NCBI GenBank assembly: GCA_017405115.1
Contig: JAFRBA010000090.1
Location: forward strand, 1-8,462
From: Kiritimatiellia bacterium
Lineage (GTDB): Bacteria > Verrucomicrobiota > Kiritimatiellia > RFP12 > UBA1067
Reading direction: 5' to 3'
DNA: 8,462 bases
Shown: positions 1,943 to 8,462 of the stretch, in pieces
Position numbering within the stretch: position 1 is the stretch's first letter
Layout: each line of letters starts with the position of its first letter
The notes under the pieces: model-generated
Database searches by the model: none
Told to the model about the DNA's origin: nothing
What the model saw: the letters and a program-made list of their open reading frames with translations, nothing else
Program-made: the position numbers and the translations under genes

Positions 1943-2001
1943 GCGAAGCGGCATCCAGCATTATGTTCGGATGAAGAGACGGCGTCACCTAATTTGCGGG
2001 A

Positions 2002-2045
2002 ATGTTGGCGCACCAACATATTTCAGCAAACGGAAATGATATAAT
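2002..2045 (+). promoter_or_regulatory. hcp promoter with two adjacent operator dyads
   Basis: The -10 box TATAAT is at 2040-2045, so transcription should start near 2052, about 28 nt before the hcp ATG. Dyad 1 is ATGTTGGCG/CACCAACAT (2002-2019, one mismatched pair). Dyad 2 is ATTTCAG-CAAA-CGGAAAT (2020-2037, one mismatched pair). The expected -35 hexamer (CATATT at 2017-2022) does not resemble TTGACA. Dyad 1 is centred about 41.5 bp before the predicted start, the class II activator position for CRP/FNR proteins. The whole element recurs at 8156-8208. The regulator is not in the window; an HcpR-like protein is an inference from the target gene. Confidence 0.75.
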
Positions 2046-2079
2046 ACGCGCCGTCAACAAGCAAGAGGAGTCAAGATAC

Positions 2080-3675
2080 ATGGAAAGAACGATTAACGAA
2101 CAGAAGATGTTTTGCTGGCAATGCCAGGAGACTGCAGGAAACAAGGGCTGCACGGTATGCGGCGTGTGCGGCAAGACGGCTGACGTCGCTGCGTTGCAGG
2201 ATGAACTGGTCTATGAGACGAAGCGTCTCTCGCAAGTCACGACAGCGTTGCGCAAGGATGGCAAGCCGGTCGACAAGGATATCAACCACCTCGTGACGGT
2301 CAATCTCTTCATCACCATCACGAACGCGAATTTCGACGCCGATGCAATCAAGGCCGCGATAGCCAAGACGAAGACCATGCGGGGCAAATTAGCCACAAAG
2401 GACACAAAGAGCACAAAGGATATGGTCGGCGTTCTCGCGACCACCGACGAGGATATCCGCTCTTTGCGCGAGTTGATTACCTACGGTCTTAAGGGGCTTG
2501 CCGCCTACTCAAAACACGCGAATGCGCTCATGCAGGATGACGAGGATGTCGATGCGTTCATCCAACGCGCGTTGGCGGCGACGCTTGACGATTCGCTTTC
2601 GGTAAACGATCTCATCGCTCTTGCACTTGAAACCGGCAAGTTCGGCGTCGCGGGCATGGCGCTCCTCGACAAGGCGAACACATCCGCCTACGGCAACCCA
2701 GAGATCACGGAGGTCGATATCGGCGTTCGCGCGAATCCCGGCATTTTGATTTCAGGCCACGATCTGCGAGACCTTGAGATGCTGCTTGAGCAGACGGCCG
2801 GGGCGGGCGTCGATGTCTATACACATTCTGAGATGCTTCCGTCCCACTACTATCCGGCCTTCAAGAAGTATCCGCACTTCGCAGGCAACTACGGGAACGC
2901 GTGGTGGAAGCAGAAGGAGGAGTTCGAGAAGTTCAACGGCCCGATCCTTATGACGACGAACTGCGTCGTGCCGCCTGCCGCATCCTACAAGGACAGGCTT
3001 TGGACGACCGGCGCGGCGGGATTCCCAGGATGCCGCCATATCGACGGAGAATACGGCGAGCAAAAGGACTTCTCCGAGCTCATCGAGCAGGCGAAGAAAT
3101 GTCCGCCGCCGACGGGAATCGAATCCGGCAAGATCGTGGGCGGGTTCGCGCACGAACAGGTGTTCGCGCTTGCCGGGAAAGTCGTCGAGGCCGTGAAGTC
3201 GGGTGCGATCAGGAAGTTCGTGGTGATGGCGGGCTGCGATGGACGCCACAAGTCCCGCGACTACTATGCCGAGTTCGCCAAGGCATTGCCGAAGGATGTG
3301 GTGATTCTCACGGCGGGATGCGCAAAGTACAAGTACAACAAGCTGGATCTGGGCGACATCGGCGGCATTCCGCGCGTCCTCGATGCCGGACAGTGCAACG
3401 ACTCTTATTCGCTAGCGCTCATCGCACTGAGGCTCAAGGAGGTTTTCGGCCTTGACGACATCAACAAGCTGCCGCTCGCCTTCAACATCGCATGGTACGA
3501 GCAGAAGGCCGTCATCGTCCTGCTGGCGCTCCTTTACCTTGGCGTGAAGAACATCCATCTTGGCCCTACCCTCCCGGCGTTCCTCTCTTCGAACGTCGCC
3601 AAGGTGCTCGTCGAGAACTTCGGCATCGCCGGCATCGGATCGGTGGACGACGACATGAAACTCCTCGTCGGCTGA
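2080..3675 (+). CDS. hcp: Hybrid cluster protein (hydroxylamine reductase), class I
   Basis: The protein has 531 residues and is cytoplasmic. Hcp proteins carry a hybrid Fe-S-O cluster; they reduce hydroxylamine in vitro and are thought to act mainly on nitric oxide in nitrosative stress. The N-terminal cluster motif is C12-x2-C15-x8-C24-x5-C30, the class I spacing of anaerobes such as Desulfovibrio, with an extra C27. All hybrid-cluster ligands are visible: H227, E251, C295, C386 (the persulfide position), C414, C439, E474, and also K476. Their spacing equals that of the Desulfovibrio protein, apart from about 26 fewer residues between the N-terminal cluster and H227 and 3 fewer between C295 and C386. 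The start at 2080 is set by GAGGAG (2065-2070), 9 nt upstream. Earlier in-frame codons lie in the promoter, and ATG 2107 lacks a ribosome site. Residues 105-114 ([10 protein letters not shown]) are encoded by a 9-bp tandem repeat. It is first in an operon with the next two genes, 11 nt before the second. Confidence 0.97.
2394..2420 (+). repeat. Three 9-bp repeats (CACAAAGRR) inside hcp
   Basis: CACAAAGGA, CACAAAGAG and CACAAAGGA follow each other directly at 2394, 2403 and 2412, preceded by TTAGC. They are in frame and encode TKD-TKS-TKD in the hcp product. Similar CACAAAG arrays occur between genes in many environmental bacterial genomes (general knowledge). The site is in a segment between the N-terminal cluster domain and the SLREL helix, where Hcp proteins vary in length. 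Confidence 0.75.
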
Positions 3676-3686
3676 AAGGAGCTGAA

Positions 3687-4073
3687 ATGACGACACATGA
3701 AAGACAGGAATACGCCGCGCAGCTGAAGCGCGAGATGAACTGCTGCCAGGCGGTCGTGCGAGCCTTCGCCGATACGCTGGACATGCCGGCGGACAAACTC
3801 ATGCAGCTTTCCGCTGGATTCGGCTCCGGCATGGGGACGATGGAGGGAACCTGCGGTGCGCTTGCTGGGGCGATCGTGGTCGCGGGACTCCGTACTGGCG
3901 GGAATGACACTATGTCGTTGTCGCGCAAGATACTGCCACGCTTTAAGGAACTCTGCGGCGCGACGATCTGCCGCGACCTCAAGGGCATCGGAACAGGCAA
4001 GATCCTGTGCAGTTGCGAGAACTGCGTCCGCAACGCTGTCCTCGCGGCGGAAGAGGCGTTGGAGACAAAATAA
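3687..4073 (+). CDS. C_GCAxxG_C_C family redox protein
   Basis: This small cysteine-rich protein has 128 residues. The start follows the hcp stop by 11 nt, with AAAGGAG (3675-3681) 5 nt before ATG; the stop of hcp overlaps this ribosome site. Motifs in order are N18-C-C-Q-A-V-V, G44-F-G-S-G-M-G, C56-G-A-L-A-G (the CGAxxG signature, with Leu at the third variable place), C90-G-x-x-I-C95, and C108-S-C-E-N-C113 near the end. These match the C_GCAxxG_C_C family (Pfam PF09719/TIGR01909), which is thought to be redox-active or metal-binding but has no established reaction. No signal peptide or convincing transmembrane helix is visible; the Gly/Ala-rich stretch at residues 56-68 is the family core. 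Being between hcp and a dehydrogenase suggests an electron-transfer or redox-sensing accessory, which is inference. Confidence 0.9.
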   Translation: MTTHERQEYAAQLKREMNCCQAVVRAFADTLDMPADKLMQLSAGFGSGMGTMEGTCGALAGAIVVAGLRTGGNDTMSLSRKILPRFKELCGATICRDLKGIGTGKILCSCENCVRNAVLAAEEALETK

Positions 4074-4089
4074 CAAGGAGCATTGCACT

Positions 4090-5139
4090 ATGAAGAAGAT
4101 TGCGTTTTTCGACACGAAGCCGTATGACAAGGAGTCGTTCGACAAGCTGAACAACGGGCGGTACGAGATCAAGTATTTCGAGACGCGGCTGACGGCGGCG
4201 GCTCTGCCCCTCGCCGACGGATGCGACGCGGCATGCGCGTTCGTTAATGCCGAGATAGACCGTGCCGTGATCGAGGGGCTTGTGAAGCGTGGCATCAGGG
4301 TTCTCGCCATGCGGTGCGCGGGCTACAACAACGTCGATTTCAAGGCGGCATACGAAGCCGGGCTTACGGTCGTGCGCGTTCCGGCGTACTCGCCTTATGC
4401 CGTCGCTGAACACGCCGCCGCGTTGCTTCTGTCGCTCAATCGCCACATCCACAAGGCGGCGGCAAGGACGCGCGACTTCAACTTCTCGCTGGCTGGTCTC
4501 ACCGGCTTCGACCTCCACGGAAAGACGGTAGGCGTAATAGGCACAGGCAAGATCGGTCGCATCTTCGCAGACATCTGCAAGGGTTTCGGTATGCGCGTGC
4601 TCGCCTACGACGCATTTCCGAATCCGACGAGCGGACTCGAATACGTGACGCTCGACAAGCTCCTCGCGGAATCGGATGTCGTTTCGCTGCATTGTCCGCT
4701 TTTGCCCGATACGAAACACCTCATCAACGCCGATACGCTCGCCAAGGCGAAGCGCGGCTTCACGCTCATCAACACGTCGCGCGGCGGACTTGTCGATTCG
4801 GAGGCGTTGTTGGCGGCGTTGCGCGGCGGAACGGTCGGAGGCGCGGGGCTTGACGTCTATGAAGAGGAAAGCGAATGGTTCTACGAGGATCGTTCTGATG
4901 TGGCGCGCCAGAACAAGACGCTCTCGCTGCTTGTCTCGATGCCGAACGTGATCGTCACCTCGCACCAGGCGTTTCTCACGCATGAGGCGCTTGCCAACAT
5001 TGCCGAGACGACGCTCAAGAACCTTGACGACTACTTCTCCGGCGCACCGCTCGCCAATGAGATTTGCTACCGATGCCTCGGCACGGGCGGGGCGGCCAAG
5101 TCGAACTGTCCGCGCCGCGCAAACGGACGCTGCCACTGA
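4090..5139 (+). CDS. ldhA: D-lactate dehydrogenase (2-hydroxyacid dehydrogenase) with Cys-rich tail
   Basis: The protein has 349 residues, is cytoplasmic, and reduces pyruvate to D-lactate with NADH, re-oxidising NADH in fermentation. The Rossmann motif is G151-x-G153-x2-G156, with D174 as the expected NAD-selecting acid. The catalytic set is R231 (in NTSRGG), E260 and H292 (in SHQAFLT), each shifted by 3 from E. coli LdhA R234, E263 and H295. The DVYEEESEWFYEDRSD-type segment supports lactate dehydrogenase over other family members. The start at 4090 has AAGGAG (4075-4080) 9 nt upstream and lies 16 nt after the previous gene. The end is unusual: after the last helix the chain continues with C326-x2-C329-x10-C340-x7-C348 and a final His. 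This could bind zinc or an Fe-S centre or form disulfides. It is last in the hcp operon, followed by a terminator 5 nt on. Confidence 0.93.
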   Translation: MKKIAFFDTKPYDKESFDKLNNGRYEIKYFETRLTAAALPLADGCDAACAFVNAEIDRAVIEGLVKRGIRVLAMRCAGYNNVDFKAAYEAGLTVVRVPAYSPYAVAEHAAALLLSLNRHIHKAAARTRDFNFSLAGLTGFDLHGKTVGVIGTGKIGRIFADICKGFGMRVLAYDAFPNPTSGLEYVTLDKLLAESDVVSLHCPLLPDTKHLINADTLAKAKRGFTLINTSRGGLVDSEALLAALRGGTVGGAGLDVYEEESEWFYEDRSDVARQNKTLSLLVSMPNVIVTSHQAFLTHEALANIAETTLKNLDDYFSGAPLANEICYRCLGTGGAAKSNCPRRANGRCH

Positions 5140-5144
5140 CCAGA

Positions 5145-5186
5145 CGCGAAAAGCCCGTCACGGGGCGACGTGGCGGGTTTTTCGCG
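5145..5186. terminator. Probable bidirectional terminator between convergent operons
   Basis: CGCGAAAAGCCCG (5145-5157) pairs with CGGGTTTTTCGCG (5174-5186) over 13 positions with one G-T wobble. The loop holds a further CACG/CGTG pairing. A T-run lies in the 3' arm on either strand. It follows the dehydrogenase stop by 5 nt and lies downstream of the minus-strand cupin stop, so it can serve both directions. Between it and the cupin (5187-5294) I see only a 12-bp palindrome, GGGCGTACGCCC at 5284-5295, which touches the cupin stop codon. Confidence 0.8.
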
Positions 5187-5294
5187 CGAGGTGCGGGCGT
5201 GGGCGGTCAGGCGGCGCGGCGGAGGGTGAATCCCCGCGTCAAGCTCATGGTAATCAAATGCGTGGATCATGCCGACGTGGATCGGGCGTACGCC

Positions 5295-5672
5295 CTACTT
5301 GTGCCAGGGGGCCTTGTCGGGGCAGAGGGCGCCGTCGTTCGCCGTGAAGGCCTCGAGCGAGCCGCGCTTCGTCTGGATGCAGAGGTACTTGATGCCGCAG
5401 TCCGCCGCCGCGCGGATGGCGCGGTGGCCGGCGGGGTCGATGCGGAACCAGTCGCCCGCCACGAGCGGCACGACTTCGCCGTCGATGTAGAGTTCGCCAT
5501 TGCCGTCGAGGATGCCGTACAGCTCCTCGTTGGCCTTGTGCTCGTGGACGAAGGGAACAGCTCCGCCCGCCAGAAGCTCGTTGATCGAGACTTCGCAACC
5601 GGTCAGTTCCAGGGCGTCGTGCAGCTCCGTGCGCGGCGCATCGACAATGTTGATCTTCTTGTAGGTGCACAT
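5295..5672 (-). CDS. Small single-domain cupin protein
   Basis: The protein has 125 residues. It carries both cupin motifs with all metal ligands. Motif 1 is G-G-A-V-P-F-V-H43-E-H45-x3-E49, followed by the usual G-N-G-E-L-Y-I-D-G-E turn. Motif 2 is G73-D-W-F-R-I-D-P80-A-G-H83. It is therefore probably a metal-binding beta-barrel; the substrate cannot be told. It ends in CPDKAPWHK. I chose ATG 5672 because the minus strand carries AAGGAAGGA just upstream. The frame stays open to 5795, but that extension is Arg/Pro-rich, non-cupin and overlaps the flavoprotein. It is the last gene of the minus-strand operon, 14 nt after the flavoprotein stop. Cupins of this kind often sit with flavin reductases, but no joint reaction is established here. 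Confidence 0.9.
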   Translation of the reverse strand: MCTYKKINIVDAPRTELHDALELTGCEVSINELLAGGAVPFVHEHKANEELYGILDGNGELYIDGEVVPLVAGDWFRIDPAGHRAIRAAADCGIKYLCIQTKRGSLEAFTANDGALCPDKAPWHK

Positions 5673-5686
5673 GGCATCATCCTTCC

Positions 5687-6226
5687 TTATTTCATGCTGA
5701 ACCCGAGATCGTGGGCGCGCTGGACGAGGTCGGTGTCCTCGAGGGCGGCGGCGGTCGGACATTCGCCGGCTATGATGCGGCCCGCATCCTGCCAATGCAT
5801 CCAGTTGAGGATGCGTTCGTAGGTCGCCTCAATGCCGACCATGACGTCCTTTGCGGGACCTTCACAGGCGGCAATCAGCAGGCTGCGCTTGCCGCCGGTC
5901 ATCTGCGGGTTGACGCTGTACCAGCGGCTCACAACCGTCGCGAGCTGCGGCGAGAGCGCGAAGTAGTAGGTCGGGGCGCAGAGGACGACGACATCCGCCT
6001 CCAGCAGCCTCGGCACGAGGGCGGAGACGAAATCGTCCTTGAATACGCATTCGCGCTGACCGCAGCCGCACTGGTTGCAGCCGATGCAGGGGCGGACTTT
6101 CGCGGTCGCGCAGTTGAAGCGGAACACCTCGTGTCCCGCGGTCTGGGCACCTTCGGCGAAGGCCGTGGCGAGGGTGTTCGTCGTGCCTTTGGGGTGGGCA
6201 CTTCCGGTGAGGATCGTGATTTTCAT
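5687..6226 (-). CDS. Iron-sulfur flavoprotein / NADPH-dependent FMN reductase family
   Basis: The protein has 179 residues and a flavodoxin-like fold. GSAHPKGTTNT (residues 8-18) is the FMN-phosphate loop. A cluster motif C47-x2-C50-x2-C53-x6-C60 (with an extra C55), followed by KDDF, matches iron-sulfur flavoproteins. PTYYFALSP (85-93) is the flavin-ring loop. The C-terminal half has CEGPAKD and a conserved WMHWQDAG stretch. Such proteins pass electrons between a reduced ferredoxin or NAD(P)H and acceptors such as quinones, oxygen species or nitro compounds, with FMN and [4Fe-4S]; the acceptor here is unknown. The start at 6226 overlaps the upstream gene's stop in ATGA, and AAAGGA lies 9 nt before it. 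The frame runs on upstream to 6451 only because the neighbouring repeat is low-complexity in this frame. It is followed 14 nt later by the cupin. Confidence 0.9.
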   Translation of the reverse strand: MKITILTGSAHPKGTTNTLATAFAEGAQTAGHEVFRFNCATAKVRPCIGCNQCGCGQRECVFKDDFVSALVPRLLEADVVVLCAPTYYFALSPQLATVVSRWYSVNPQMTGGKRSLLIAACEGPAKDVMVGIEATYERILNWMHWQDAGRIIAGECPTAAALEDTDLVQRAHDLGFSMK

Positions 6227-6714
6227 TTGCTGGTTTCCTTTGTTGGCTGTGAAATGACCTTGACGAGGAGGCGGTCGAGTTCTTTCGTCTCGTCCGCCAT
6301 GAGGTTCTTCGTGATCTCCGCCGCCTCCGCCCAACGTTGTTCCTCTTCCACCCGACGACGTTGTTGTTCTTCCGCCCGACGACGTTGTTCTGCCGCCTCC
6401 GCCCGAAGTTGTTCCTCTTCCACCCGACGACGTTGTTGTTCTTCCACCCAAAGACGTTGTTCATTCGCGCGCATACGGTCTTCAAGAACGTGAGCATCTC
6501 GCTCTGCCTCCATAGCATTCTGTTGATGCCGTTGCGCGTCAAGAGAAGTGGCGTCTCCTACGTTAAATGCCTCTCGCCGTTCTTCATCTGCAAATCTGCG
6601 TGCTTTGAATACATCTACTTCGGAAGGATTTGGGTTGTTAGGGTCGTATGGCTTAAATTGCGCAAAGGATCTGCACGAGACTATTACAACACAGAGTAGA
6701 ACAATCGTTTTCAT
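6223..6714 (-). CDS. Exported coiled-coil protein with 8-residue repeats, possible lipoprotein
   Basis: The protein has 163 residues. The N-terminus is a short basic start (MK) and a hydrophobic run (IVLLCVVIV). Either I-V-S-C14 serves as a lipobox or signal peptidase I cuts after SFA (residue 18); the sequence does not decide. After a short D/N/P-rich linker, nearly all of residues 35-150 are charged Glu/Arg/Gln helix, predicted as a coiled coil. The core is built from 8-residue units such as EEQQRRRV, EEEQLRAE and AAEQRRRA, and a three-unit set is duplicated as a 72-bp DNA repeat. I recognise no family; it resembles TolA-like stalks only in composition. It starts 10 nt after the nuclease stop, with TAGGAAA upstream, and is translationally coupled by ATGA to the flavoprotein. 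A periplasmic or membrane-anchored spacer or scaffold is possible, but this is inference. Confidence 0.8.
   Translation of the reverse strand: MKTIVLLCVVIVSCRSFAQFKPYDPNNPNPSEVDVFKARRFADEERREAFNVGDATSLDAQRHQQNAMEAERDAHVLEDRMRANEQRLWVEEQQRRRVEEEQLRAEAAEQRRRAEEQQRRRVEEEQRWAEAAEITKNLMADETKELDRLLVKVISQPTKETSK
6318..6461 (-). repeat. 72-bp direct duplication coding the coiled-coil repeats
   Basis: Copies at 6318-6389 and 6390-6461 abut and are nearly identical over 72 bp, keeping the frame (24 residues). Each is made of related ~24-bp units ending in GACGACGTTGTT-like sequence. Differences cluster at the copy ends. The pattern suggests recent growth by slippage or unequal exchange, and unit number may vary among strains. 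Confidence 0.85.
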
Positions 6715-6724
6715 AACGGATTTC

Positions 6725-7810
6725 CTATTCCTTACTCGTCACCGCAATCTGCCGCTCCGCGTCGGCCACGCACTTTGCCAACTGCGCCTTGGAGGGAAGA
6801 ACCTTCTTGAGTTCGTAATCCGTGATGCCCATTGGCAGGCCAAGTTCCTCAAGATGGTACTTGGCAAGGATGCGGTTGTGTTCCTTGCAGATGAGAAGTC
6901 CGACGGGCTGATTGTCGACTGACGTGTTCAAGACGTGTTTCGCCATCGCCATGTAGCCGCTCAATTGGCCGAGGTCGGCGGGTTCGTACTTCCCTGTCTT
7001 GACTTCGACAACAAGGTAGCGGTGAAGAGGTACGATGTAGAAGAGCAGATCGATGTTCTTTGTCTCGCCGCCTATTTCAACTGGGTATTCTCTCCCAAGA
7101 AACGCGACGCCCTTGCCAAACGACAGCAACGTGGATTCGATGTTGGCGACGATGGCGGCTTTCAATTCGGTCTCGGAATACTTCTCTTTCAATCCGAACA
7201 CCTCGAAGTTCTGCGGATCCTTCACAATCTGCCGCGCCAGGTCGCAGTCGTCGGACGGCATCGTCAGTTCAAAGTTCGTCTGCGCCTTGCCCTCGCGCTC
7301 GTAGAGGTCGGTCGAAAGCCAGTTCAAAAGCGAATTGCGGCTCCACCCGTTCTTAAGCGTTCTCAACACGTAAAACAGGGCCTTTTCTGGGTCATTCTTA
7401 CATTTGTCGATGATGGTGCAATGATGCCCCCAAGGAACGTTCACCAATTTTCCAACAAGTTGTTGGAAATTTGGTTGCATACTGTAGAGTTCATAGAAAT
7501 GCAGACAATAGCGGAGGTTTTGCGTGGAGAACCCTTCGGCGTCTGGAATGGATCCCTTGAGGTCGATGCTCAACCGTGGGAAGAAGCCCGTACCATAGAT
7601 TTTGGTACCGACATACTTTTCGCGCACATCCTTTCCGAGATTCCAATAGAACTCAATCAGCGCGGAATTGACGGCGACCGCCGCCTTGATCTGGGTTGCG
7701 CGGTAGCGGCGCTTAAGGGCAGCAATCCACGCGGCGTAGGATTTCTCCACGCCGTTCCCGTCGCTCTTCACAGGAGCCGTGCTTTTCTTTCGCGCTTCGT
7801 TCTTCTTCAT
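6725..7810 (-). CDS. DUF1016/YhcG-type PDDEXK nuclease
   Basis: The protein has 361 residues, close to the ~375 of E. coli YhcG. The N-terminal DUF1016 domain (about 20-180) carries N-S-A-L-I-E-F-Y-W-N-L-G-K (48-60), Y-G-T-G-F-F-P-R-L-S (72-81), F-S-T-Q-N-L-R (94-100), and the conserved V-P-W-G-H-H (125-130). The C-terminal nuclease domain has F-L-G-R-E-Y-P-V, then D254 in K-N-I-D-L-L-F-Y, then E269-V-K271 and G-Q-L-S-G-Y-M. These give the D...ExK catalytic core, so it looks active. YhcG-type proteins are predicted DNA endonucleases, often near restriction-modification or defence genes, with unproven roles. The start at 7810 has AAGGAG 5 nt upstream. The gene includes AT-rich stretches (20 of 60 G/C at 7441-7500) unlike hcp, which fits acquisition. 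It leads an operon that continues with redox genes, 10 nt before the next start. No methylase or other defence partner is visible. Confidence 0.93.
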   Translation of the reverse strand: MKKNEARKKSTAPVKSDGNGVEKSYAAWIAALKRRYRATQIKAAVAVNSALIEFYWNLGKDVREKYVGTKIYGTGFFPRLSIDLKGSIPDAEGFSTQNLRYCLHFYELYSMQPNFQQLVGKLVNVPWGHHCTIIDKCKNDPEKALFYVLRTLKNGWSRNSLLNWLSTDLYEREGKAQTNFELTMPSDDCDLARQIVKDPQNFEVFGLKEKYSETELKAAIVANIESTLLSFGKGVAFLGREYPVEIGGETKNIDLLFYIVPLHRYLVVEVKTGKYEPADLGQLSGYMAMAKHVLNTSVDNQPVGLLICKEHNRILAKYHLEELGLPMGITDYELKKVLPSKAQLAKCVADAERQIAVTSKE

Positions 7811-8067
7811 ACATGCTCCTTGTTCATCGTCCTACCAACATGAAAAAAGCGTACCCCAGACTGTATCTCAAACGAGGCACGACCAAGTACCATTTGGCGA
7901 AATACAGAATAGGGTACGCAAAGTGCCTGTATACACTCTGCGATACCACATATTCTGCCTCGCCGTTTGATTGGTCGTCTTTCGTTTGAAGCACAACACG
8001 CAGTTACGCGATTTCCATGAATGGTAAAGAACGACGCCTTCCGCCTCAGTGCACCACGCCGTTTCAT
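7807..8067 (-). CDS. Doubtful small Arg-rich ORF ahead of the nuclease
   Basis: An 86-codon frame begins 25 nt after the predicted start of transcription from the 8127-8099 promoter and ends in a 4-nt ATGA overlap with the nuclease start, like the other coupled junction in this operon. Against it, there is no clear ribosome site, the product (MKRRGALRRKASFF...) matches nothing I know, and its frame runs through strong inverted repeats. The stretch may instead be an untranslated leader, or a remnant. I list it because it would otherwise leave a 280-nt leader unexplained. Confidence 0.2.
   Translation of the reverse strand: MKRRGALRRKASFFTIHGNRVTACCASNERRPIKRRGRICGIAECIQALCVPYSVFRQMVLGRASFEIQSGVRFFHVGRTMNKEHV
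7849..7919. repeat. Two-part hairpin in the leader of the nuclease operon
   Basis: GCGTACCC (7849-7856) pairs with GGGTACGC (7912-7919). Inside it, CTGTAT (7861-7866) pairs with ATACAG (7902-7907), separated by a small symmetric internal loop. A third possible pairing, CCAA/TTGG (7883-7886 with 7894-7897), closes the tip. No T-run follows on either strand, so it is not a simple terminator. Confidence 0.55.
7868..7989. repeat. Long-range 19-bp inverted repeat
   Basis: TCAAACGAGGCACGACCAA (7868-7886) and TTGGTCGTCTTTCGTTTGA (7971-7989) are complementary at 16 of 19 positions: two perfect 8-bp blocks around three mismatched central bases. The left arm lies in the interior of the 7849-7919 hairpin, so long-range pairing would alter that structure. 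A small plus-strand ORF (7840-7989, 49 codons, no ribosome site) ends exactly with the right arm; I do not call it a gene. Otherwise 7990-8098 shows nothing I can name. Confidence 0.6.
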
Positions 8068-8098
8068 GGCATAATAAACCTAAGCAAAAGACGGCAGT

Positions 8099-8127
8099 AT
8101 TATCGCATTTTCGGGTTCAAAAGTCAA
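8099..8127 (-). promoter_or_regulatory. Sigma70-type promoter for the nuclease operon
   Basis: Read on the minus strand, TTGACT (8127-8122) and GATAAT (8104-8099) each match five of six consensus bases and are 17 bp apart. Transcription should start near 8092 and run towards the nuclease at 7810. It is divergent from the plus-strand operator promoter; 30 bp separate its -35 box from dyad 1 at 8158. Confidence 0.65.
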
Positions 8128-8157
8128 TGCTGGTGCGACAAGAATAAAATTGCCTGA

Positions 8158-8201
8158 ATGTTGGCGCGCCAACATATTTCCGCGAACGGAAATGGTATAA
8201 T
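8158..8201 (+). promoter_or_regulatory. Second copy of the hcp-type promoter/operator
   Basis: Dyad 1, ATGTTGGCG/CGCCAACAT (8158-8175), is a perfect 18-bp palindrome. Dyad 2, ATTTCCG-CGAA-CGGAAAT (8176-8193), directly abuts it and is also perfect around a 4-nt centre. TATAAT is at 8196-8201. Spacing is identical to the hcp copy, and 48 of 53 bases agree between 8156-8208 and 2000-2052. The expected -35 place holds CATATT in both. It drives the broken cupin and probably the ferredoxin gene. Confidence 0.75.
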
Positions 8202-8211
8202 ATGCGCCATC

Positions 8212-8399
8212 ATGAACGATGTAAAAGGTCAAGTCTTCTCGATAGCGGCGGAAAATGCACCGGTCGACGGCTGCACGGCCTCGAGGGCAGGGAACACACC
8301 ATCAAGGCGGGGGAGAACTTCGCGTTCGCCAAGAACGGCGCACATTGGGTCCGCGCCGAAAAGCCGTTCAAGATGGCTTTGCTGCTAACATTGGATTGA
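8212..8399 (+). pseudogene. Cupin gene with internal deletion and frame change
   Basis: Translation from ATG 8212 gives MNDVKGQVFSIAAENAPVDG, which looks like the N-terminus of a small cupin, but this frame then turns into Arg/Ser-rich nonsense and stops at 8388. In another frame, from about 8270, the C-terminal half of a cupin appears: LEGREHTIKAGENF, then AKNGAHWVRAEKPFKM and a hydrophobic end, with stop at 8397-8399. The middle part, about 45 residues including the first metal motif (GxxxxHxH...E), is missing. This needs a deletion of roughly 130-140 bp plus a change of frame. The only other start for the C-terminal frame (8202) is next to the -10 box, before the transcription start. ATG 8212 is itself only about 4 nt after the predicted transcript start, with no ribosome site. 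Confidence 0.7.
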
Positions 8400-8419
8400 C
8401 AAACAAAAGGAGAATCAAG

Positions 8420-8462
8420 ATGAGAGCGTATGTTGACCAGGAACTATGCATAGGCTGCGGCC
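8420..8462 (+). CDS. Ferredoxin, [4Fe-4S], cut by window end
   Basis: Only 14 codons are visible: MRAYVDQELCIGCG. The start has AAGGAG (8407-8412) 7 nt upstream. The beginning, with a short beta strand and the CIGCG cluster motif, is typical of small bacterial-type [4Fe-4S] ferredoxins; cluster number and length cannot be seen. It lies 20 nt after the cupin remnant and should be transcribed from the promoter at 8158-8201. A larger protein with an N-terminal ferredoxin domain is possible but less likely. Ferredoxin-like genes are known members of hcp regulons in anaerobes, which fits the shared operator. Confidence 0.8.
   Translation, partial: MRAYVDQELCIGCG

Follow-up and report, generated by a model that had tools for sequence, protein, structure and literature searches.

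The DNA analyzed here, 8,462 nucleotides of contig JAFRBA010000090.1 from a Kiritimatiellia bacterium (assembly GCA_017405115.1; hereafter the window, its genome being G000), carries two near-identical promoter segments, one upstream of hcp, the gene for hybrid cluster protein, and one upstream of a cupin gene remnant and a small ferredoxin gene. Each segment is, with a probability of about 0.82, a class II activator-dependent promoter of an HcpR-like protein of the CRP/FNR family serving hcp and ferredoxin redox genes. This reading draws on the sites, their spacing and conservation, the linkage to a regulator gene, and the nature of the targets, all of which are apparent from sequence.

Two near-identical promoters in the window

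Direct comparison of segments 2000-2052 and 8156-8208 showed identity at 48 of 53 positions, and a repeat search lengthened the match to 1991-2056 and 8147-8212 (86% identity). A preliminary description of this DNA had claimed the near-identity over 53 bp and the architecture (an 18-bp dyad, a second 18 bp, two bases, and TATAAT), and both were confirmed. The elements, as predicted from sequence, are as follows:

2002..2019, plus strand: dyad 1, copy 1, putative regulator site TGTTGGCGCACCAACA of the hcp promoter (core 2003-2018)
2020..2037, plus strand: second 18 bp ("dyad 2"), copy 1, of which relatives keep mainly the ends (ATTT on the dyad-1 side, the T of TG on the -10 side)
2037..2045, plus strand: extended -10, copy 1, TG A TATAAT (TATAAT at 2040-2045)
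8158..8175, plus strand: dyad 1, copy 2, putative regulator site TGTTGGCGCGCCAACA (core 8159-8174)
8176..8193, plus strand: second 18 bp ("dyad 2"), copy 2
8193..8201, plus strand: extended -10, copy 2, TG G TATAAT (TATAAT at 8196-8201)

Dyad 1 is perfect at 8158-8175 and has one mismatched central pair at 2002-2019. Its centre is 29.5 bp upstream of the first base of TATAAT, which by convention corresponds to -41.5 relative to the predicted start, and no TTGACA-like -35 box was seen on inspection of either promoter, exactly as first described. When 58 genomes were searched for the 18-bp dyad with at most one mismatch, five matched (the window's own included), all belonging to one genus, and the pattern always preceded a gene; the reversed control pattern matched once, in G048, which argues against chance. 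In G005, G008, and G018, the pattern separates a ferredoxin gene from a divergently transcribed CRP/FNR gene.

The core of dyad 1 and its targets in the order

Comparison of orthologous intergenic regions places a core, TGTTG-N6-CAACA, 21 nt before TATAAT on the target side. Dyad 1 had been recognized correctly in the preliminary description, but not its half-site, given there as GTTGG-N4-CCAAC: the base following TGTTG varies (G 21, T 6, and C 4 in 31 promoters). With at most one mismatch, core plus spacing was present at 47 sites in 33 of 161 genomes of the order (0-3 sites per genome); the reversed pattern gave 3. The 25 zero-mismatch sites represent 19 distinct contexts, the hcp promoter of the window being the 20th (G000 contig C91 starts at about window position 3078, and this promoter falls outside that contig). 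Downstream of every zero-mismatch site lies a gene for ferredoxin, hcp, LDH (D-2-hydroxyacid dehydrogenase), cupin, or hydG, the last assigned by a model only on L046 (TIGR03955, 409 bits) and elsewhere by similar start sequences. Thirteen of the 22 one-mismatch sites also precede a target, including CGCA and a rubredoxin-like 49-aa frame (67.6 bits, under its cut-off of 90). The scan of relatives therefore yielded further targets besides hcp, namely ferredoxin, LDH, cupin, and hydG. With up to two mismatches, 27 of 61 genomes of the genus matched, but two-mismatch sites are mostly uninformative because the reversed pattern, too, is common at that level.

A CRP/FNR-family gene co-occurring with the element had also been anticipated, and was found: 17 of the 18 genomes with a perfect site contained the regulator (E<=1e-25), compared with 22 of the 143 without (Fisher 2e-11). 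A spacing of 21 nt to the -10 element and a poor -35 region (predicted centre, -41.5) are the marks of class II CRP/FNR promoters, and, together with conservation and the linked regulator, they support the original assignment of dyad 1 as a putative site of this class.

Among the genomes of the genus, hcp matches were obtained in 14 of 61, one of them marginal. Five of 13 distinct upstream regions of hcp genes with the N-terminus present have an exact nGTTG-N6-CAACn within 220 bp (G015, G024, G092, G077, and G001), and the site is also present in the window and G018 copies. The G029 hcp follows ferredoxin and cupin genes, the site there having one core mismatch, and those of G000:C50 (88 bp of upstream sequence available) and G062 are apparently in an operon behind a small ferredoxin. 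Thus, the presence of the dyads in orthologous hcp promoters was borne out for dyad 1 in most of this hcp class, but not for dyad 2 (see below).

The linked CRP/FNR regulator

The regulator scores over the cut-off for PF00027 (cNMP_binding) and PF13545 (HTH_Crp_2), the domain pair of the HcpR family fold, and its AlphaFold2 model (mean pLDDT 94.5) has CRP-type structural matches. Matches occur in 35 of 61 genus genomes at E<=0.001 and in 39 of 161 order genomes at E<=1e-25; the weaker matches at E<=0.001 probably include other CRP/FNR proteins. G000 has one copy (58% identity), divergent from a ferredoxin gene on G000:C68 with TGTTGGAACGGCAACA between the two, and in G015, G024, G001, and G092 the regulator gene is divergent from hcp. 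Close relatives that bear organism names come from rumen and gut Kiritimatiellae metagenome-assembled genomes, and the few named proteins among the 120 relatives listed are annotated as "Crp/Fnr family transcriptional regulator" or "CRP-like cAMP-binding protein".

All 56 aligned members have Arg at the position of CRP Arg180, followed by Ser (50 members), Ala (5), or Thr (1). The register was set by alignment to PDB chains, in which 1o5l, presumably Thermotoga HcpR2, has R-P and Porphyromonas gingivalis HcpR has R-Q at the aligned 180-181 positions. It therefore agrees with the Pro (HcpR2) and Gln (P. gingivalis) stated in PMC1274295, and the Arg180-G3 pairing of that paper holds for the regulator and site here. 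A strict requirement for Ser181 was rejected, and a strict Ser code is not shown, because hydG-linked paralogs with Ala (DRAALS) keep the same core. Likewise rejected was the idea that the residue aligned to CRP Arg185 sets the T at position 5, since members with R, K, or N keep TGTTG sites. A C-x3-C-x2-H motif (C123, C127, and H130) ahead of the dimer helix (128-155) is complete in 49 of 56 aligned members; that it is essential was rejected, as the proteins of G001, G015, and G024 lack the Cys residues and still have sites and hcp. An N-terminal Cys cluster of the FNR type was not seen on reading the sequence of the regulator P0001.

The paralogous DRAALS-helix regulators adjoin hydG-like genes (L032/L039 on G061:C78, L046 on G008:C320, and L092 on G128:C193), and these loci share TGTTG-N6-CAACA, tying [FeFe]-hydrogenase maturation to the site. 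A separate peculiarity is the regulator frame of L016 (G005:C93), in which ∼31 residues are duplicated internally and in frame; this may be an assembly artefact.

The regulator probably also controls its own gene, since the site often lies between that gene and the divergent target. In 9 of 17 regulator loci with a core-like upstream site, a TATAAT-like -10 (at most one mismatch) stands 15-16 nt away on the regulator side, which places the site near -36 and therefore suggests self-repression, as may apply in many Kiritimatiellae. At G003:C186 (L029) and G031:C27 (L063), TATAAT is 21 nt off on the regulator side, as for self-activation; in G027 the regulator-side -10 is at 9 nt, and G007, G008, G015, G008p, and G061 have none that good.

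Site and regulator in other phyla

A regulator profile built from a 15-sequence alignment was searched over genome contigs, and the best 80 of 517 relatives were analyzed: 13 were assigned to the Kiritimatiellae type by titles and shared contigs, and the remaining 67 were mostly Clostridia, along with 3 spirochaetes, one Acidaminococcus, and one Anaerolineaceae. Of these 67, 66 loci had more than 150 bp upstream. GTTG-N6-CAAC occurred within 250 bp upstream in 45 of these 66 loci, other spacings from 0 to 12 occurred in 0 or 1 locus each, and the reversed CAAC-N6-GTTG in 2. Where the gene context was that of HcpR, with a ferredoxin or hcp neighbour (43 loci), the site was present in 41; where there was no such neighbour, it was present in 4 of 23 (Fisher 9e-11). 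TAnnnT stood at offset 21 on the target side in 40 of the 45 site-bearing loci; the next best offset, 16 (28/45), belongs to a TATAGTAnnAT-like run, and on the regulator side no offset had TAnnnT in more than 3 loci. At least 29 of the 45 have a TAC flank after the site, toward the target.

The exact pattern was found 27 times in 21 of 30 chosen genomes, and never reversed, with ferredoxin, hcp, LDH, or cupin genes within 900 nt downstream on the same strand in 23 cases. Of the other four sites, one belongs to an L-lactate dehydrogenase gene (TIGR01771, 406 bits), one to a gene for a DUF438-hemerythrin protein (scoring far under the cut-off of the YtfE/RIC models), and one to a modA-like gene (TIGR01256, 119 bits); for the fourth, no open reading frame was found. 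Site-bearing loci include one spirochaete (L198) and the Anaerolineaceae (L159, CGTTG..CAACG); the distribution of the site reaches beyond this organism's group. Gut and rumen groups with the regulator include Lachnospiraceae, Oscillospiraceae, and Kiritimatiellae. In Clostridia (e.g., L144, L147, and L154), target promoters have an overlapping run of the TATAGTAnnAT type at offsets 16-26 past the site.

Proposed mechanism and its weighing

In the mechanism proposed, a homodimeric CRP/FNR-family protein (about 220-226 aa, HcpR-like) would bind TGTTG-N6-CAACA centred at -41.5, replace the missing -35 box, and recruit RNA polymerase to the extended -10 (TGnTATAAT), thereby turning on hcp and the genes for ferredoxins, cupin, lactate-type dehydrogenases, and further redox proteins. 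The signal would most likely be nitrosative stress. Binding, the direction of regulation, the signal, and the duplication history set out below are what we infer.

Several observations weigh against this interpretation. Twenty-one of the 66 non-Kiritimatiellae loci lack the site, 9 of the 22 one-mismatch sites have no adjoining regulon gene, G078 has no close regulator despite a perfect site, and no core stands upstream of hcp in G033 (55% identity) or in the hcp class of ∼45% identity (5/5). Conservation of core and TATAAT in the 31-promoter set is partly built in by the selection pattern, and the 30 genomes scanned for the exact pattern were selected for holding the regulator. Counts and Fisher tests are not independent, because the loci are often related and because site, regulator, and target often form one locus. 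Finally, with the family profile, DNR, Lmo0753, and 1o5l outscore P. gingivalis HcpR (fourth) in PDB, and closeness to HcpR proper is therefore unclear from sequence.

The regulator could instead be a redox or fermentation sensor (responding to oxygen, ferredoxin state, or another ligand), with hcp as one of many electron-transfer targets. The presence among the targets of ferredoxins, both D- and L-lactate-type dehydrogenases, cupins, the rubredoxin-like protein, hydG, and modA would fit, as would the fact that ferredoxin is commoner than hcp as a regulator neighbour among the matches listed. A point against this alternative is that lactate dehydrogenase responds to NO. What also makes a general redox sensor the unlikelier choice is that hcp, ferredoxin, and hemerythrin-like genes are named among the members of the HcpR regulon (PMC1274295) and that a DUF438-hemerythrin gene is a target here; moreover, mutation of hcpR in C. 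difficile causes sensitivity to NO and lowers the expression of frdX and hcp (PMC12915319), although that HcpR may belong to another branch.

A more far-reaching and rather speculative extension of the activator reading is that of a multi-phylum HcpR-type branch with its own code (Arg180 plus Ser181, sometimes Ala; TGTTG-N6-CAACA) and the C-x3-C-x2-H motif, controlling a regulon of nitrosative stress and lactate fermentation through thiolate/His sensing of NO. If true, this branch would span Kiritimatiellae, Clostridia, at least one spirochaete, and perhaps Anaerolineae, and would sense NO unlike the Met-ligated heme proposed for Porphyromonas HcpR.

More generally, the site looks like a widespread switch controlling genes for hybrid-cluster protein and ferredoxin, of interest for its breadth, its fixed spacing, and the additional targets. 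It provides a candidate binding rule and a target list for a regulator found in many gut and rumen anaerobes. It also touches on how the Arg180/Glu181 specificity code of the CRP/FNR family works at Ser181, and it allows part of an uncultured group's stress regulon to be predicted from sequence.

The second 18 bp: operator or flank

It had been proposed that the promoter is under two-factor control, with an activator on dyad 1 and a separate repressor on dyad 2 (ATTTC-N8-GAAAT). We regard this as quite improbable. Dyad 2 is near-perfect at 8176-8193, and ATTTC..GAAAT stands beside dyad 1 in G007, G029, G122, G129, G130, and G136. The pattern ATTTC-N8-GAAATGnTATAAT (i.e., ATTTC-N8-GAAATG-N-TATAAT) had 44 matches in 114 genomes, 13 of them beside dyad 1, compared with 1 for the whole pattern reversed. 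Because reversing the entire pattern makes a poor promoter control, the 5′ arm alone was reversed, which gave 14 matches (3 shared) versus the 31 of 44 away from dyad 1; a mild, two-fold excess of TTTC at the dyad-2 position (31 unlinked versus 14) thus remains. Inner pairs numbered 1.56 of 4 in nine linked distinct sites, slightly above the 1.0 expected, but were at chance in 30 unlinked distinct sites (1.10 of 4).

Across 31 promoters, mean pairing of the dyad-2 arms was 3.77 of 9 versus 3.41 after arm shuffling, a value that 0.0435 of shuffles reach (relatedness ignored), and the 3′ arm turns into GGTTTTG or CGATAAT while 5′ ATTTC stays. In 31 distinct dyad-1 promoters (33 records), information content was 2.0 bits at GTTG and CAAC (partly by site choice), 0.9-1.5 at TATTT (-33 to -29), and ∼1.3 at TG (-15 and -14), but less than 0.35 from -27 to -21; mainly the edges recur. 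Dyad 2 is, furthermore, absent from the hcp promoters of G001, G015, and G092. Neither a repressor site nor two-factor control is supported by these data, and given the near-shuffle pairing, the chance inner pairs, and the absence from orthologous promoters, dyad 2 was rejected as an operator. It is best read as conserved flank (TATTT beside dyad 1) plus the TG of the extended -10. ATTTC-N8-GAAATGnTATAAT also occurs without mismatch, and not beside dyad 1, at G000:C44:6525-6550, G122:C19:31515-31540, and G074:C120:6219-6244.

Genes of the window and origin of the second promoter

The genes adjoining the two promoters are as follows:

2080..3675, plus strand: hcp, hybrid cluster protein/hydroxylamine reductase, 531 aa (NF003658, 819 bits; TIGR01703, 749 bits)
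3687..4073, plus strand: C_GCAxxG_C_C family redox protein (profile match), likely in the hcp operon
4090..5139, plus strand: D-2-hydroxyacid (D-lactate-type) dehydrogenase (profile match), likely in the hcp operon
8212..8399, plus strand: cupin gene remnant with internal deletion (alignment to L133)
8420..8462, plus strand: small ferredoxin gene, start only (continues past the window end)

Behind the second promoter, first reported as preceding cupin/ferredoxin, the cupin gene is internally deleted: window positions 8211-8288 and 8276-8462 align to L133 3126-3049 and 2604-2418, respectively. Relatives of the dehydrogenase gene in G002, G078, G125, and G130 have the site directly upstream. Its best NCBIfam scores are to VanH models, an identity that was rejected (233 bits versus a cut-off of 540).

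In L133, one site is followed by genes for ferredoxin, cupin, small ferredoxin, hcp, a DUF488 protein (identity verified on the G000:C50 copy of the cluster), and LDH. The promoter is present twice in the window probably because two copies of an L133-like regulated cluster were rearranged, one giving rise to hcp-CGCA-LDH and the other to the deleted cupin plus small ferredoxin; duplication of the cluster followed by different deletions is probably the simplest history.

Window 3264-8462 is 100% identical to a whole contig, G065:C42 (L110; 5199 bp), 4441-8462 is 99.95% identical to G124:C98 (L111; 4022 bp), and 3654-8376 is 97.8% identical to G136:C228 (L112). G065 is another species of the same genus, whereas G124 and G136 belong to another genus; recent transfer and mis-binning are both possible, and the regulator acting on the window promoters need not be G000's own. 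That the element is a dispersed mobile or structural repeat lying before genes by accident was rejected as extremely unlikely: it does occur twice in one contig and in identical 43-bp copies in G000, G065, G124, and G136 (the latter because these contigs are near-identical), but sites are few per genome, the perfect ones are all positioned as promoters of few target gene families with one spacing, and the core recurs in other phyla with different flanks.

Other features of the window include a DUF1016/YhcG PDDEXK nuclease-family gene between the two promoters (6725-7810); a minus-strand frame at 6223-6714 for a Glu/Arg-rich, probably coiled-coil protein of 163 aa, with a 24-bp repeat array inside (6293-6484); and an intergenic, imperfect tandem repeat of ∼41 bp upstream of the hcp promoter (1790-1871; 2 copies listed, 78%), the units of which appear, by eye, to run on to about 1935.

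Comparison with FNR, CRP, and HcpR

For the FNR site (TTGAT-N4-ATCAA), TTGA-N6-TCAA was found in 0 of 66 loci, and the 31 promoters, which had been chosen by the GTTG pattern, have a GTTG core. At class II promoters of E. coli CRP, the dimer site TGTxx-N6-xxACA is centred at -41.5 and a good -35 box is missing. The geometry here is the same, with the half-site TGTTG instead of TGTGA; we know of no cAMP link for a TGTTG-site regulator.

The targets and the linked CRP/FNR gene support the earlier suggestion of an hcp/ferredoxin regulon resembling that of HcpR. To call this an undescribed regulon was too strong, since control of hcp and frdX by HcpR in clostridia is already described (Rodionov 2004, PMC545781; Rodionov 2005, PMC1274295), with candidate sites at clostridial frdX mentioned as data not shown (PMC545781). 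The half-site, in contrast, does differ from the published HcpR1 and HcpR2 consensuses, as had been noted: at a spacing of k=6, TGTG-CACA, TTGA-TCAA, and GTAA-TTAC each occurred in 0 of 66 loci, versus 45 for GTTG-N6-CAAC. TTGA-TCAA occurred at other spacings (k=2, 5 loci; k=4, 9 loci), the k=4 matches arising because a GTTGA-N4-TCAAC site yields them. A text search limited to passages from part of the literature, including portions of PMC545781, PMC1274295, and PMC12915319, found no TGTTG-N6-CAACA site for HcpR; the sole match to the motif spelling was a Corynebacterium MarR paper. The regulator probably works like HcpR; membership in the published HcpR1 or HcpR2 is not claimed because their printed motifs were tested and did not fit.

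P. gingivalis HcpR (PDB 9day), which activates hcp (PMC12750200), is the best single-sequence PDB match, and 9day_A tops the 50 listed chains by TM-score (0.76, 25% identity). Unlike the regulator described here, it has Gln at its 181 position, and its aligned region is without C-x3-C-x2-H. A heme with Met68 was proposed for this protein (PMC12750200), and Fe-S for D. desulfuricans HcpR2 (PMC5701242).

HcpR1 of Desulfovibrio and other delta-proteobacteria regulates hcp and frdX (PMC1274295). Its Desulfovibrio sites share the CRP-like 16-bp geometry, with Arg180 matching G3, but read TGTGA-N6-TCACA or TTGAC-N4-GTCAA. HcpR2, in turn, is known from Clostridium, Bacteroides, Thermotogales, and Treponema (PMC1274295, PMC545781), and has the printed consensus GTAAC-N4-GTTAC and Pro181 (PMC1274295). 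The regulator resembles HcpR2 in its CRP/FNR fold without the FNR cysteine set, in the proximity of its gene to hcp and ferredoxin, and in the palindrome upstream of hcp, but goes with TGTTG-N6-CAACA, with Arg180 and mostly Ser181. Ser181 is found in the HcpR2 proteins of C. thermocellum and C. difficile, whose motifs differ and are given in Figure 3 of PMC1274295 rather than in its text; these two may belong to the TGTTG-N6-CAACA subtype.

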